38,918 nucleotides of DNA from Gammaproteobacteria bacterium (GTDB taxonomy: Bacteria; Pseudomonadota; Gammaproteobacteria; JAJPIJ01), in contig JAJVHZ010000088.1 of assembly GCA_022072255.1 (NCBI GenBank), positions 1 through 38,918 on the forward strand, read 5' to 3'. This document shows positions 7,298 to 15,017 of this stretch, one piece after another. Every line of letters begins with the position of its first letter. Position 1 is the first letter of the stretch. The notes beneath the pieces are model-generated. The model was not told the DNA's origin, searched no databases, and saw nothing but the letters and a program-made list of their open reading frames with translations. Position numbers and translations under genes: made by a program.

Positions 7298-8239
7298 GTG
7301 ACCAGTCCACGCCTACGCATCGTTTTCGCCGGCACGCCGGAGTTCGCGGCCGTTTCGTTGCGGGCCTTGCTCGACGACGGCAGCAACGGCGTCGTCGCCG
7401 TCTACTGTCAGCCGGATCGGCCGGCCGGACGCGGCCGGCAGTTGACCGCCTGCGCGGTCAAGCGGCTGGCCGTCGAAAGAGGGCTGCCGGTGTATCAGCC
7501 GACCAGCTTCAAGGAGGCGCCGGAGCTGGAGGCCTTCCGCGCCCTGCAGCCGGACCTTCTGGTCGTCGTGGCATACGGCCTGATATTGCCGCGCACCCTG
7601 CTCGAAATTCCGCGCCTTGGCTGCATTAACGTCCACGCGTCCCTGCTGCCGCGCTGGCGCGGCGCGGCCCCGATCGAGCGCGCCATCATGGCGGGCGACA
7701 CGGAGACCGGCGTCACGCTGATGCGCGTTGAGCCCAGGCTCGACAGCGGCCCTGTGCTTGCCGCGGCCCGTTGCCCGATCGCGGAGGACGATACGGCGGG
7801 CGCTCTCCACGACAGACTCGCGCGCCTGGGAGCGGCATTGCTGGTCTCGACGCTGCCATTCCTGGAGAGCGAAACGGTCACTGCAATCCGGCAGGACGAC
7901 AGTCTGGCGACATACGCGGCCAAGATTGACAGGCGGGAGGCCGAACTCGAATGGTCGCTGAGCGCCGCGGAACTCGCCCGCCGCGTGCGCGCGCTGAATC
8001 CCCGACTCGGCGCCATCGCCACCATCGCAGGCGAGACGGTGAAGATCTGGCGGGCTGAGAGCACCGGGGAGATCTGCGCCAGACCACCGGGGGAGATTGT
8101 GCGGGCGGGACCGGCCGGAATCGACATCGCGACCGGAGACGGGGTGCTGCGGCTGCTTTCGATTCAACCACCCGGCCGGCGTCCGGTATCCGTCGCGGAC
8201 TTTCTCAACGCCAGGCCCAGGCTGAAGGAACACGCTTGA
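7298..8239 (+). CDS. fmt: Methionyl-tRNA formyltransferase
   Basis: Fmt transfers the formyl group of 10-formyl-THF to initiator Met-tRNA. The 313-residue protein opens with the Rossmann strand IVFAGTPEFAA (8-18). It carries the formyltransferase motif NVHASLLPRWRGAAPI (111-126), with catalytic Asn111 and His113, followed by GDTETGVTLM. The C-terminal tRNA-binding OB-fold domain covers about residues 205-310. The start is GTG at 7298, 46 bases after def. The stop TGA overlaps the TTG start of rsmB by one base frame (TTGA), which points to translational coupling. Confidence 0.98.
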   Translation: MTSPRLRIVFAGTPEFAAVSLRALLDDGSNGVVAVYCQPDRPAGRGRQLTACAVKRLAVERGLPVYQPTSFKEAPELEAFRALQPDLLVVVAYGLILPRTLLEIPRLGCINVHASLLPRWRGAAPIERAIMAGDTETGVTLMRVEPRLDSGPVLAAARCPIAEDDTAGALHDRLARLGAALLVSTLPFLESETVTAIRQDDSLATYAAKIDRREAELEWSLSAAELARRVRALNPRLGAIATIAGETVKIWRAESTGEICARPPGEIVRAGPAGIDIATGDGVLRLLSIQPPGRRPVSVADFLNARPRLKEHA

Positions 8240-9579
8240 GGCGCATCGCTCCCGGCCGGGCGAGGGGCGCGCCGATCATGGGTGCAGCCGCGCGCGCCGC
8301 CGCCGCGCGCGTCGTCCGGGCGGTTATCGACCGAGGTCGGTCGCTGGAAGCTGCACTGACGCCGGAACTCGGCGCGATCGCAGCCGAGGATGCGCCCCTG
8401 TGCCGGGAGCTGAGCTTCGGCACGCTGCGCTTCGAACCGAGGCTCGCGTGGCTTGCGGAGCGACTGCTGCGCCAGCCTTTGCCGGCAAGCGCCCGCGATG
8501 TGCACGCGCTGCTGCTCGTCGGACTGTATCAACTCGACCAGCTCGGCACTCCACCGCATGTGGCCGTCTCCACGACCGTGGAGGCCTGCCGGCACCTCCG
8601 GCAGAACTGGGCGTGCGCGTTGGTGAACGGCACGCTCAGAAATTTCGAACGCTATCAGCCATCGCTGCGCGCCGAGGCCGAGGCGTCGCCGGTGGCGCGA
8701 TTCGCGCATCCGCCGTGGATGATCCAGGCGGCGCGGAGAGACTATCCCCACGAGTGGCAGGCGCTGCTGGAGGCGAACAACGCCCGCGCGCCCATGACGC
8801 TGCGCGTCAATCTGCGTGCGACCTCGCGCGAGCTGTACTTGCGACGGCTGGCCGCGGCGGGCATCTCCGCGGCCGCCACGGTGCACAGCCGCTGCGGGGT
8901 CACTCTCGCCGCGCCACTCGCCGTTTCGATCCTGCCCGGTTTCGATGACGGCCAGGTCTCCGTGCAGGACGAAGCGGCGCAGCTCGCAGCGCCGCTGCTG
9001 GCTCCGCTTCCCGGCCAGCGCGTGCTGGACGCCTGCGCCGCGCCCGGCGGCAAGGCGGCCCATCTGCTGGAGGCATCCCCGCAGGTCGGCGAACTACTGG
9101 CCGTCGACGCGGACGACCGCCGCCTGGAGCGCCTGAGATCGACGCTTGCCCGACTGAGCTTGAACGCGCGCGTGCAGACCGGCAGTGCGCTGCAGCCGCA
9201 GTCATGGTGGGACGGGCGCAGCTTCGAGCGCATTCTGCTCGATGCGCCCTGCAGCGCGACCGGGGTCATCCGCCGGCACCCCGATATCAAGGCGCTGCGA
9301 CGGCCATCGGACATCCAGGCCCTGGCGAGCATGCAGGGACGCATGCTGGGGGCGCTCTGGCCCCTGCTGGCCCGTGGCGGTAAGCTGCTTTACTCGACGT
9401 GCTCGGTATTCCCCGAGGAGAATCATTTGACGGTACAGGAGTTTCTGGCCGCGACCCCGGATGCCACCGAGGCCGGTTTCACCGCAGCATGGGGCCGCGC
9501 GAGCCCCGTCGGACGCCAGATCCTGCCGGGCGAGGGCAATATGGACGGCTTTTTCTATGCCTTGCTGGTCAAGCATTGA
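8236..9579 (+). CDS. rsmB: 16S rRNA m5C967 methyltransferase RsmB
   Basis: RsmB (Fmu/Sun) methylates C967 of 16S rRNA with S-adenosylmethionine. The 447-residue protein has an N-terminal NusB-like RNA-binding domain (about 15-145) and a C-terminal Rossmann methyltransferase. The latter shows the SAM motif LDACAAPGGKAAHLLE, the motif LLDAPCSATGVIRRHPD and the catalytic-cysteine motif STCSVFPEENH. The chosen start is TTG at 8236. It overlaps the fmt stop, and AAGGA six bases upstream is a good ribosome binding site. ATG at 8278 is the alternative. The 3' end overlaps the next gene by about 23 bases. Confidence 0.96.
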   Translation: MRRIAPGRARGAPIMGAAARAAAARVVRAVIDRGRSLEAALTPELGAIAAEDAPLCRELSFGTLRFEPRLAWLAERLLRQPLPASARDVHALLLVGLYQLDQLGTPPHVAVSTTVEACRHLRQNWACALVNGTLRNFERYQPSLRAEAEASPVARFAHPPWMIQAARRDYPHEWQALLEANNARAPMTLRVNLRATSRELYLRRLAAAGISAAATVHSRCGVTLAAPLAVSILPGFDDGQVSVQDEAAQLAAPLLAPLPGQRVLDACAAPGGKAAHLLEASPQVGELLAVDADDRRLERLRSTLARLSLNARVQTGSALQPQSWWDGRSFERILLDAPCSATGVIRRHPDIKALRRPSDIQALASMQGRMLGALWPLLARGGKLLYSTCSVFPEENHLTVQEFLAATPDATEAGFTAAWGRASPVGRQILPGEGNMDGFFYALLVKH

Positions 9580-10135
9580 GCGGTGGCGCCTGGTCTGGAT
9601 CACCGCCCTGCTCGGGGGCCTTTGCGTATTGCAGGATGTCCGCGCGGAGGGCTACGAGGTCCGCAGCGTCGCGGGTCGCGTCGTCAACGGGATATACGTC
9701 GTGGACAGCTCGATTGATATCGGACTTTCCGAGGACATGCGCAACGCGCTGAACAGCGGCGTTGCATTGACCTTCCTCGTCGAGGTGGAGATTCACGCGC
9801 CGCGGCGCTATATCTGGGATGCGCTCATCGTGCGCAGCACGCAAAGACTGACGCTTGAATACCATGCGCTGACGGGCGGATACGTGGTCAACAACGAGAG
9901 CACCCATACCCGTCGCAGCTTCCCTTCCCTGAACGAAGCCCTGAATGGGCTCGGCGAATTGCGGGGAATGGCTGTCTCCGAAGAGCGCTTTCTTCCTGCC
10001 GACACTTCGTGCTCGGGTCGCTTGCGGGTGAGCCTCGACGTGGAATCGCTGCCACCGCCGCTGCGTCCGATAGCCTACCTGTCGCCGCAGTGGCACCTGC
10101 GCTCGGACTGGCGGCGATGGACAGTTGAGCGATGA
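9557..10135 (+). CDS. DUF4390 family periplasmic protein
   Basis: A 192-residue protein of the DUF4390 family, which typically lies between rsmB and ntrY in Gamma- and Betaproteobacteria. The N-terminus is a signal peptide or anchor (RWRLVWITALLGGLCVLQ, then VRA before EG). The rest is beta-rich, without catalytic motifs, and ends in a WHLRSDWRRW stretch. The start is taken as ATG at 9557, inside the end of rsmB, because upstream codons of the open frame read as a shadow of rsmB. The stop overlaps the ntrY ATG (ATGA), so it is translationally coupled to the sensor kinase. A role near NtrY in the envelope is suggested by position only. Confidence 0.85.
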   Translation: MPCWSSIERWRLVWITALLGGLCVLQDVRAEGYEVRSVAGRVVNGIYVVDSSIDIGLSEDMRNALNSGVALTFLVEVEIHAPRRYIWDALIVRSTQRLTLEYHALTGGYVVNNESTHTRRSFPSLNEALNGLGELRGMAVSEERFLPADTSCSGRLRVSLDVESLPPPLRPIAYLSPQWHLRSDWRRWTVER

Positions 10136-12408: not shown

Positions 12409-12568
12409 TCAGCACCACGATGGCGGGCGTCGTGCACGCCCGCGCCCCGCAGCGCACGACTTCGCCGCCGCCAGCTTCCTGCAGGTTCCGGATCAGGCCA
12501 TTGATCCCGGAATCGAATCGGGCACGGTGCTGCGCGTGGCAACTCCTGGCTGGGGAATCGACCGATGA
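12392..12568 (+). CDS. Doubtful small ORF between ntrY and ntrX
   Basis: A 58-codon frame beginning MAESHNQHHDGG overlaps the end of ntrY and ends in a TGA that overlaps the ntrX ATG (ATGA). That overlap is the pattern of translational coupling seen elsewhere in this window. Against it, no ribosome binding site is visible before 12392. The composition is low-complexity (Arg/Ala/Pro-rich start) and no family was recognised. Third-position GC is about two thirds, not clearly coding. It may be a leader that couples ntrX to ntrY translation, or simply spacer. Confidence 0.2.
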   Translation: MAESHNQHHDGGRRARPRPAAHDFAAASFLQVPDQAIDPGIESGTVLRVATPGWGIDR

Positions 12569-13953
12569 GCGCCGGACAGCATATTCTCGTCGTAGACGAC
12601 GAAGAGGCGATACGCAGCCTGCTGCGCGAGATACTCGAGGACGAAGGGTTTTCCGTCGCCACCGCGGGCAACGTCGCCGAGGCGAAGGAGGCGCGGCGGG
12701 TACGCAGACCGGATCTCGTTCTGCTGGATATCTGGATGCCGGACGGTGACGGTATCACGCTGCTGAAGGAGTGGGCGCAGGGCTACGGAATGGACGTTCC
12801 CGTGATCATGATCTCCGGCCACGGCACGGTCGAGACCGCGGTCGAGGCCACGCGCATCGGGGCGTTCGATTTTCTCGAGAAGCCGCTGTCCCACGGCAAG
12901 CTGCTGGTCACCATCGAGCGTGCGCTGGAAATGGCGGCGCTGCGCCGCGAGAACATCGGGCTGAGGCGCCAGGCGGCAAGCACGGAGCTGCTCGGTTCCA
13001 GTCGCGCCATCACGCAACTGAAGGAGCAGATACAACGGATCGCACACCACAACACCACCGTGTTCCTCACCGGCGAATCCGGCACCGGCAAGGAGGTATT
13101 CGCCCGCTTCCTGCACACGCACAGTCCGCGTGCGCGCAACGTGTTTCTCTCCGTGAATATCGGGGGTCTCGCCCGCGATTCCCTGGAGCAGGAGATATTC
13201 GGATCGGAGAGCAAGGGCCGCGTGCATTTTGGGGCTCTGGAGCAGGCCAGCGGCGGGACCCTGTTGCTCAAGGACATCACCGACCTGAGCCTCGAGATGC
13301 AGGCACGCCTGCTCAACGCCCTGGAGACCCAGTCATTGGTGCGGGTGGACGGTCTGGATCCGGTGCGGATAGACGTGCGCATCGTGGCGGCCACCCGCCA
13401 TGACCTGAAGGCGGCGGTGGACGCGGGCCAGTTTCGAGACGATCTCTACTACCACCTCAACGTCGTTCCCCTGCGGATCCCGGCACTGCGACAGCACGCC
13501 GAGGACGTGCCGGAGCTCCTCGCCTATTACCTGGACCTGTTCGTCGCACAGGAAGGCCTTCCGCGCCGGCAGTTCTCGAACGCCGCGCTGCAGCGGCTGC
13601 GTGCCTATGCCTGGCCCGGGAACGTGCGTGAACTGAAGAATCTCGTGCAGCGCCTGCTCATCCTCGGATCCGGTCCGGTGATCGAGGCCCCCGAGATCGA
13701 ACAGGCACTCGGAATCCGGCCGGTATCCGCTGTCGAGAGCAGGCCGGGCTTCGATCTGCCGATGCGCGAGGCGCGCGAACAGTTCGAAAAGGCGTATCTC
13801 GAGTACCAGCTGCAGCACGAACAGGGCAATGTCTCCAAGGTGGCCGAGCGGATCGGACTGGAGCGCACTCATCTTCACAGGAAACTTCGCGCGCTCGGGA
13901 TCGACCCCAAGTACATCAAACACGCGAGCGGCCGCGCCCGGGAAGATGCCTAG
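12565..13953 (+). CDS. ntrX: NtrX-type response regulator lacking the GAFTGA loop
   Basis: A 462-residue NtrC-family regulator paired with NtrY. The receiver domain (about 5-125) has the acidic pair Asp11-Asp12, phosphoacceptor Asp55 and Lys106. The AAA+ domain (about 140-385) has an intact Walker A GESGTGKE (170-177) and an arginine-finger region FRDDLYYHL (290-298). The sigma-54 contact loop that normally reads GAFTGA is missing: after FG at 212-213 the sequence is shorter and reads SESKGRVHFGALEQA. The Walker B segment reads GGTLLLKDI instead of GGTLFLDEI. The C-terminal Fis-type helix-turn-helix (about 418-447) is intact. It is therefore likely a DNA-binding regulator that does not activate sigma-54 polymerase. 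The ATG at 12565 overlaps the stop of the small upstream frame. Confidence 0.92.
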   Translation: MSAGQHILVVDDEEAIRSLLREILEDEGFSVATAGNVAEAKEARRVRRPDLVLLDIWMPDGDGITLLKEWAQGYGMDVPVIMISGHGTVETAVEATRIGAFDFLEKPLSHGKLLVTIERALEMAALRRENIGLRRQAASTELLGSSRAITQLKEQIQRIAHHNTTVFLTGESGTGKEVFARFLHTHSPRARNVFLSVNIGGLARDSLEQEIFGSESKGRVHFGALEQASGGTLLLKDITDLSLEMQARLLNALETQSLVRVDGLDPVRIDVRIVAATRHDLKAAVDAGQFRDDLYYHLNVVPLRIPALRQHAEDVPELLAYYLDLFVAQEGLPRRQFSNAALQRLRAYAWPGNVRELKNLVQRLLILGSGPVIEAPEIEQALGIRPVSAVESRPGFDLPMREAREQFEKAYLEYQLQHEQGNVSKVAERIGLERTHLHRKLRALGIDPKYIKHASGRAREDA

Positions 13954-14039: not shown

Positions 14040-15017
14040 TCAGCCCGATGTGCAGGCAGCTGCCAGCGGTCCGTTCAACTGCAGGCTGCCGACCAGTTCC
14101 GTAACGTTACCAAACCGGTGTCGCCGCAGGTAATCCACTATCCCGCCGTTTAGCTTGGGGAGGAGCAGGGGGTCGTAGAAAAGGCCCGTGCCCACGCCGA
14201 TACCACTCGCACCGGCGACGAGAAATTCGATTGCATCCTCGACCGTGACGACGCCACCCTGACCGATAATCGGAATGCCGTGCGGCCCGCAGACCTGGTA
14301 GACCTGGTGCACCTTCAGCAGGGCCACCGGCTTGATGGCCGGACCCGAGAGCCCCCCCTGGTTGTTGCCGATTACCGGGCGGCGGGTCTCTATGTCGATC
14401 GCCATGCCCATCAGCGTGTTGATGACGGCGAAACCGTCCGTGCCCGCCTCGATACACCGGCGGGCGTTGTGGGCGATATCGGTCTGGTTCGGCGACAACT
14501 TCGTGATGATGGGCTTGCGTGTGGCGCGCCTGCACACCTCCACAACCCTTGCCGACATCTCCGGATCGTTGCCGAACGCCACGCCACCCTGTTTCACGTT
14601 CGGGCAGGAGATGTTGATCTCGATGGCATCGATCGGCGAATCGTCGAAGATGCGCGTGACCTCCTCGTACTCCTCGACGGTCGAGCCGGAGACATTGGCG
14701 ATGAAGCGGGTCTCGCTGAAGTCGAGCACCGGAAGGATCTCGTCGACCACGTAGCGCGCGCCCGGGTTCTGCAGGCCGATTGCGTTCAACATGCCGCCTG
14801 GCGTCTCGCAGACGCGATGGGGAGGGTTTCCGAGACGAGGGCTCAAGGTCGTGCCCTTCAGGCAGACGGCTCCGGCGTCCCGATTGGAGAAGCCGACGAC
14901 GCGCGTATACTCCTCACCAAAGCCGACACAGCCGGAGAGCAGCACCAGCGGCGTTGCGAACTTCATGCCGCAGAAGTCGAGCTCGAGCATCGCCCTGTCG
15001 GAATCGTTGAGGATCAT
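14040..15017 (-). CDS. pyrD: Dihydroorotate dehydrogenase, class 1B type
   Basis: The enzyme oxidises dihydroorotate to orotate in pyrimidine synthesis, using FMN. The 325-residue sequence has the class 1 active site with cysteine (ISCPN, Cys138), not the serine of the membrane class 2 enzyme. It also has the FMN-binding GGVVTVEDAIEFLVAGASGI segment and the INTLMGMAIDI insert of class 1B. Class 1B enzymes normally work with the electron-transfer subunit PyrK, which is not in the window. The ATG is placed at 15017. A second ATG at 14990 (MLELDFCG) fits the family start well and would leave 29 bases to trmL. The gene converges on ntrX and is divergent from trmL, with start codons almost touching. 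Confidence 0.9.
   Translation of the reverse strand: MILNDSDRAMLELDFCGMKFATPLVLLSGCVGFGEEYTRVVGFSNRDAGAVCLKGTTLSPRLGNPPHRVCETPGGMLNAIGLQNPGARYVVDEILPVLDFSETRFIANVSGSTVEEYEEVTRIFDDSPIDAIEINISCPNVKQGGVAFGNDPEMSARVVEVCRRATRKPIITKLSPNQTDIAHNARRCIEAGTDGFAVINTLMGMAIDIETRRPVIGNNQGGLSGPAIKPVALLKVHQVYQVCGPHGIPIIGQGGVVTVEDAIEFLVAGASGIGVGTGLFYDPLLLPKLNGGIVDYLRRHRFGNVTELVGSLQLNGPLAAACTSG

Follow-up and report, generated by a model that had tools for sequence, protein, structure and literature searches.

What does an NtrX protein do once the part of its AAA+ domain that would contact sigma-54 has gone? The question is posed by ntrX in a 38,918-nucleotide stretch of gammaproteobacterial DNA (the window), whose product combines a receiver and its phospho-accepting Asp with an AAA+ domain and a Fis-type helix, the architecture of the NtrX/PlrR subfamily (Table 1).

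The window NtrX and its gene neighbourhood

The genes run in the order fmt-rsmB-plrP(DUF4390)-ntrY-ntrX, which is the PlrPSR arrangement, a cluster of beta/gamma type, and the gene neighbourhood of the subfamily; the order rsmB-DUF4390-ntrY-ntrX recurs in L316. A dihydroorotate dehydrogenase-like gene (14040-15017, minus strand) converges on ntrX, and in some relatives (e.g. L315) trkA is found there. The 156 nts between ntrY and ntrX (12409-12564) could hold a promoter of ntrX's own. An ntrX promoter inside plrS has been reported for Bordetella, and in L022 and L023, which belong to the sister genus, ntrY can still be read directly upstream of ntrX. GCAn9TGC, the site proposed for alphaproteobacterial NtrX, was found upstream of 2 of 35 gammaproteobacterial ntrX genes, which is no enrichment over the shuffle mean of 2.4 and yields no binding site for NtrX; matches to it and to CAAn3-5TTG occur in the window.

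Table 1. Features of the plrP-ntrY-ntrX locus, with positions in the window
Feature	Position	Strand	Evidence or comment
fmt, methionyl-tRNA formyltransferase	7298..8239	+	Formyl_trans_N and _C
rsmB, 16S rRNA methyltransferase	8236..9579	+	Methyltr_RsmB-F, NusB
plrP homologue coding for a DUF4390 protein; periplasmic location from analogy with Bordetella PlrP	9551..10135	+	PF14334, 148.8 bits; only copy found in genome
ntrY (plrS-type) sensor kinase, 758 aa	10132..12408	+	NtrY_N, HAMP, HisKA, HATPase_c; H-box HEIKNPLTP
ntrX (plrR-type) response regulator, 462 aa	12565..13953	+	Pfam Response_reg, Sigma54_activat, AAA_lid_14, HTH_8
Asp55, receiver phospho-acceptor	12727..12729	+	Asp in 138/138 aligned and 32/32 added divergent proteins
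Walker A GESGTGKE, Lys176	13072..13095	+	Lys in 115/135 gammaproteobacterial orthologues
L1 loop remnant, 5 residues shorter and without GAFTGA; residues 214-221 predicted as a short beta-hairpin	13198..13239	+	Alignments; model
Walker B position LLLKDI, K236-D237 in place of D-E	13261..13278	+	Alignments; KD in 20 genomes
Arg278 at sensor I Asn position	13396..13398	+	Asn gone from nearly all gammaproteobacterial orthologues
Arginine fingers, R291 kept, second = H297	13435..13455	+	R291 in 130/135, second Arg in 28/135
Fis-type helix-turn-helix, residues 404-443	13774..13893	+	PF02954, 38.4 bits

Residues 212-238 of NtrX (window 13198-13278) read EIFGSESKGRVHFGALEQASGGTLLLKDI. The conserved F-G and the G-G that precedes Walker B are spaced by 18 residues in window NtrX and in 124 of the 138 proteins aligned (below). 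The loop segment has 19 residues as against 24 in canonical relatives, so that five are missing, GAFTGA among them. This shortening, which the initial annotation had placed at residues 212-225, is borne out by translation and alignments, as is its reading of the Walker B end as LLLKDI. It had also described Walker A, the arginine-finger region and the Fis-type helix as intact. For Walker A and the helix that is correct, and for the finger region it is half so: the first finger and the lid Arg (R355) are retained in the alignment, but the second finger has changed from YYRL to YYHL. This change, and the Arg at the sensor I position, had been overlooked. Four features of sigma-54-dependent enhancer-binding proteins, namely GAFTGA, the Walker B D-E, sensor I and the second arginine finger, are consequently absent from window NtrX.

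Two artefacts were considered and excluded. Sequencing error does not account for the deletion and the K-D pair, since both are shared with a genome of the same genus (L021, 96% identical over 462 aa) and with two of the same family (L022 and L023, 65% identical). An intact loop that has merely been displaced would leave a GAFTGA-like string in that region, and none was found there in the 138 aligned proteins and 32 divergent ones.

By sequence and by Foldseek the best solved relative is Brucella NtrX (5m7n/5m7o). An AlphaFold2 model based on 30 sequences has a mean pLDDT of 90.5 and a pTM of 0.61, the latter leaving domain placement uncertain. In it the AAA+ fold is retained with a short hairpin where the loop formerly was, and the AAA+ part alone superimposes on FleQ, FlrC and NtrC1 at about 1.6-2.0 Å.

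The curated equivalog model for NtrX, NCBIfam NF051870, gives window NtrX 473.5 bits, below its cut-off of 600 bits. Of the matches listed in a search of the phylum, all that exceed 600 bits belong to the group termed alpha-like below and none to the window's class. The model leaves out the gammaproteobacterial branch of NtrX.

Motor residues across NtrX groups

The alignment comprises 135 gammaproteobacterial and 3 betaproteobacterial orthologues, taken from 369 genomes of the class and a database scan, and 32 more divergent class members were added (30 from a further search, together with L306 and L312). The loss of GAFTGA had been singled out initially as noteworthy for a gammaproteobacterial locus. 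It is instead the rule there: the motif is kept in none of 167 proteins (the 135 aligned and the 32 more divergent), in a sample drawn from proteins scoring well with window NtrX as query, from which very divergent NtrX could be missing. Loop length is exactly that of window NtrX in 124 of the 135. Alignment with relatives also disposes of the idea that the deletion defines a small clade, though KD at Walker B roughly does.

The phospho-accepting Asp of the receiver is present in every one of the 135 aligned gammaproteobacterial proteins, and in 167 of 167 when the divergent ones are included. The Walker A Lys (115/135), first arginine finger (130/135) and lid Arg (125/135) are mostly kept. 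At Walker B, D-E is found in 44 of the 135, K-D in 20, D-D in 11 and N-D in 9, with others besides; the second arginine finger is present in 28, and an Asn at sensor I is very rare. Eighteen of the 135 retain D-E and both fingers along with Walker A, so ATP may still be hydrolysed in part of the class.

For other groups, a search of 299 phylum genomes supplied 50 NtrX proteins, and 25 non-proteobacterial relatives served as outgroup. The labels alpha-, Magnetococcia- and Zetaproteobacteria-like (Zeta-like) are inferred from score bands and from the distribution of DUF4390, which was found in the Magnetococcia-like and Zeta-like groups and not in alpha-like genomes, in agreement with the distribution given in PMC13001219. 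All 25 outgroup proteins have D-E and both fingers, and their loop segment is 24 residues long. The Zeta-like group has the same length, mostly with GAFPGA and sometimes with GAFTGA, and D-E in 7/8; the Magnetococcia-like segment is mostly 24 residues with the motif eroded (D-E in 8/12), and the alpha-like segment is 20-22 residues with no GAFTGA (D-E in 28/30, both fingers in 30/30). The gammaproteobacterial length is 19, and the betaproteobacterial one, from 3 proteins only (L073, L096, L111), is 8, with remnants of the AAA+ fold visible. As the motor is kept in the non-proteobacterial relatives and partly in two other proteobacterial groups, what emerges is a graded series of decay.

A FastTree of 213 proteins, made with the trait columns removed, groups window NtrX with other proteobacterial NtrX, as expected for the NtrX/PlrR subfamily. 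Gamma- and betaproteobacterial proteins come together with support 99, and these with the alpha-like group with support 100; the alpha-, Magnetococcia- and Zeta-like groups are each one side of a branch. The betaproteobacterial proteins are placed inside the gammaproteobacterial ones, at a point where the program warns of long branches meeting. Among the gammaproteobacterial proteins, this tree requires Walker B to have switched between D-E and some other state 18 times or more. K-D is confined to a clade of 24 rows (support 76; 20 K-D, 3 Q-D and 1 K-E), so that one gain suffices, and the 20 K-D genomes represent ten family codes (f1, f9, f12, f29, f33, f71, f92, f120, f121, f140).

Mean pair identity per domain, computed without the loop and Walker B columns, served as the gauge of constraint. 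In the outgroup it is highest for the AAA+ core (0.58 vs 0.47 for the receiver and 0.42 for the helix), and in Gammaproteobacteria it is lowest there (0.52 vs 0.71 and 0.62). Where receiver identity is 0.65-0.75, that of the core is 0.51 in the gammaproteobacterial, 0.62 in the alpha-like and 0.71 in the Magnetococcia-like group. Judged by mean top-residue frequency, conservation in Gammaproteobacteria peaks in the receiver (0.80), and the helix is at 0.70. Constraint has eased on the motor and been maintained on signal input and DNA binding. Tentatively, the motor may have been dismantled in steps, the loop going before the catalytic residues and these before the fold, under continued constraint on the receiver and DNA-binding parts, and one clade of about ten families may have fixed Lys for the Walker B Asp, possibly with a newly gained function, for instance to lock nucleotide in place without magnesium.

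Sigma-54 and the likely mode of action

Absence of sigma-54 does not explain the loss in the window genome, and is rejected there. The check for rpoN that had been advised found the gene present, with at least 7 canonical enhancer-binding proteins, which confines the loss to NtrX. Among the class genomes with an NtrX match there is also one that keeps ntrX with no detectable rpoN: in G182, a single draft genome that is 98% complete, neither of the two sigma-54 domains searched for was detected, and the sole Sigma54_activat protein is an NtrX homologue without Walker A and without Walker B (in the PDB it matches Brucella NtrX best, at 230.8 bits vs 164.2 for the next). Its gene is in a def-fmt-DUF4390-ntrY-ntrX-trkA cluster (L306, L315), with no rsmB among the ORFs scanned in L315. 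Three other genomes in which rpoN went undetected, G043 (L304), G090 (L305) and G311 (L303), were set aside as evidence, since each has at least one protein with GAFTGA and D-E and rpoN may be missing from the assemblies. [Another low-scoring Sigma54_activat protein, at 169 bits, is encoded in the same genome as window NtrX, at G000:C80:12871-13353 (L014).]

The initial suggestion that NtrX acts without sigma-54 contact and under NtrY control is well supported by sequence, the loop being absent class-wide and the receiver, DNA-binding helix and ntrY linkage being retained. Window NtrX is, with good probability, a sigma-54-independent and hydrolysis-defective DNA-binding dimer controlled by phosphorylation, its AAA+ module no longer serving as a sigma-54 motor. 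Phosphorylation of Asp55 would be set by NtrY, itself probably modulated by periplasmic PlrP (in Bordetella, which has the same gene arrangement, PlrP has been assigned on genetic evidence the role of a third component, one that holds the phosphatase activity of PlrS in check, PMC13001219). It would alter, via the linker and an inert AAA+ body, the way in which the dimer is held, and this in turn would control binding of the Fis-type helix to palindromic sites, where NtrX may activate or repress ordinary sigma-70-type promoters. ATP may still bind as a structural ligand because Walker A, the first arginine finger and the lid Arg are kept, and hydrolysis would be absent or very weak. A counterpoint is that Caulobacter NtrC, though without GAFTGA, nonetheless requires ATP-site residues (PMC10274813).

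A narrower form of the dimer explanation makes ATP binding essential. Phosphorylated NtrX, unable to hydrolyse ATP, would assemble into a stable oligomer with ATP bound, and this would contact sigma-70 polymerase after the manner of Rhodobacter capsulatus NtrC, for which ATP binding is required and not hydrolysis (PMC10274813). The selective retention of the Walker A Lys, first arginine finger and lid Arg, with Walker B, sensor I and the second finger lost, speaks for this, as does the crystallisation of an NtrC1 Walker B mutant with ATP (PDB entry 3m0e). However, divergent relatives, that of G182 included, are without Walker A too and still keep the operon. ATP binding by Brucella NtrX is also said not to bring about oligomerisation, which again counts against an ATP-held oligomer, and we regard this version as possible but somewhat doubtful.

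Continued sigma-54 activation, through a displaced loop or through mixed rings formed together with some other enhancer-binding protein in the cell, is highly improbable: the genome does have rpoN and several canonical partners, but the aligned relatives have no displaced GAFTGA, and there is the persistence of ntrX in G182. Simple decay of ntrX to a functionless pseudogene would fit the faster evolution of the AAA+ core than in relatives, but is extremely improbable in view of the intact reading frame, the 96% identity of the same-genus orthologue, the conservation of receiver and helix with Asp55 in all 167 proteins, and retention of the operon in distant class members.

Relation to known systems

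Brucella abortus NtrX (5m7n, 5m7o, 5m7p) is 41-42% identical to window NtrX and resembles it in having the same domains, in being without GAFTGA and in keeping Walker A; it differs, in the alignment, in retaining the Walker B D-E and the second arginine finger and in having a longer loop remnant. In work by Fernandez et al. in 2017 (J Mol Biol 429:1192), Brucella NtrX without GAFTGA reportedly bound ATP and did not hydrolyse it. Crystal structures of the Brucella protein with ATP and with ADP are in the PDB. Alphaproteobacterial ntrYX adjoins ntrBC, not rsmB-plrP (PMC13001219). Bordetella PlrR (rsmB-plrP-plrS-plrR-trkAH, PMC13001219) shares the gene order, DUF4390 protein included, and has a similar kind of receiver and helix, but trkA, which follows plrR, does not follow ntrX in the window. 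Betaproteobacterial NtrX has lost far more of the AAA+ region than window NtrX, and is described as without AAA+ by Bonato 2016 as relayed in PMC13001219.

GAFTGA-less NtrX is already known from Brucella, from Caulobacter (PMC10274813) and from one Thioalkalivibrio, the NtrX of T. thiocyanoxidans (G372_RS0109755) appearing as a table entry in PMC5744179, where this gammaproteobacterial protein is given as an enhancer-binding protein without the motif. Rhodobacter capsulatus and Caulobacter NtrC and Vibrio VspR are likewise GAFTGA-less and act at sigma-70 promoters, but their losses are in other subfamilies or lineages and their need for ATP binding or hydrolysis varies (PMC10274813). What is added here is the rule for the whole class, together with the graded series and the K-D clade; no account of these was found in the open literature, which does not prove novelty. 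The Pfam-based label of sigma-54 activator is very probably wrong for NtrX of this class, and regulons predicted by sigma-54 or NtrC logic would be misdirected (NtrC-like targets have been inferred for NtrX in a recent comparative study, PMC12194929). The members of the graded series offer natural intermediates for studying the passage from a mechanochemical activator to a plain phosphorylation-controlled switch.
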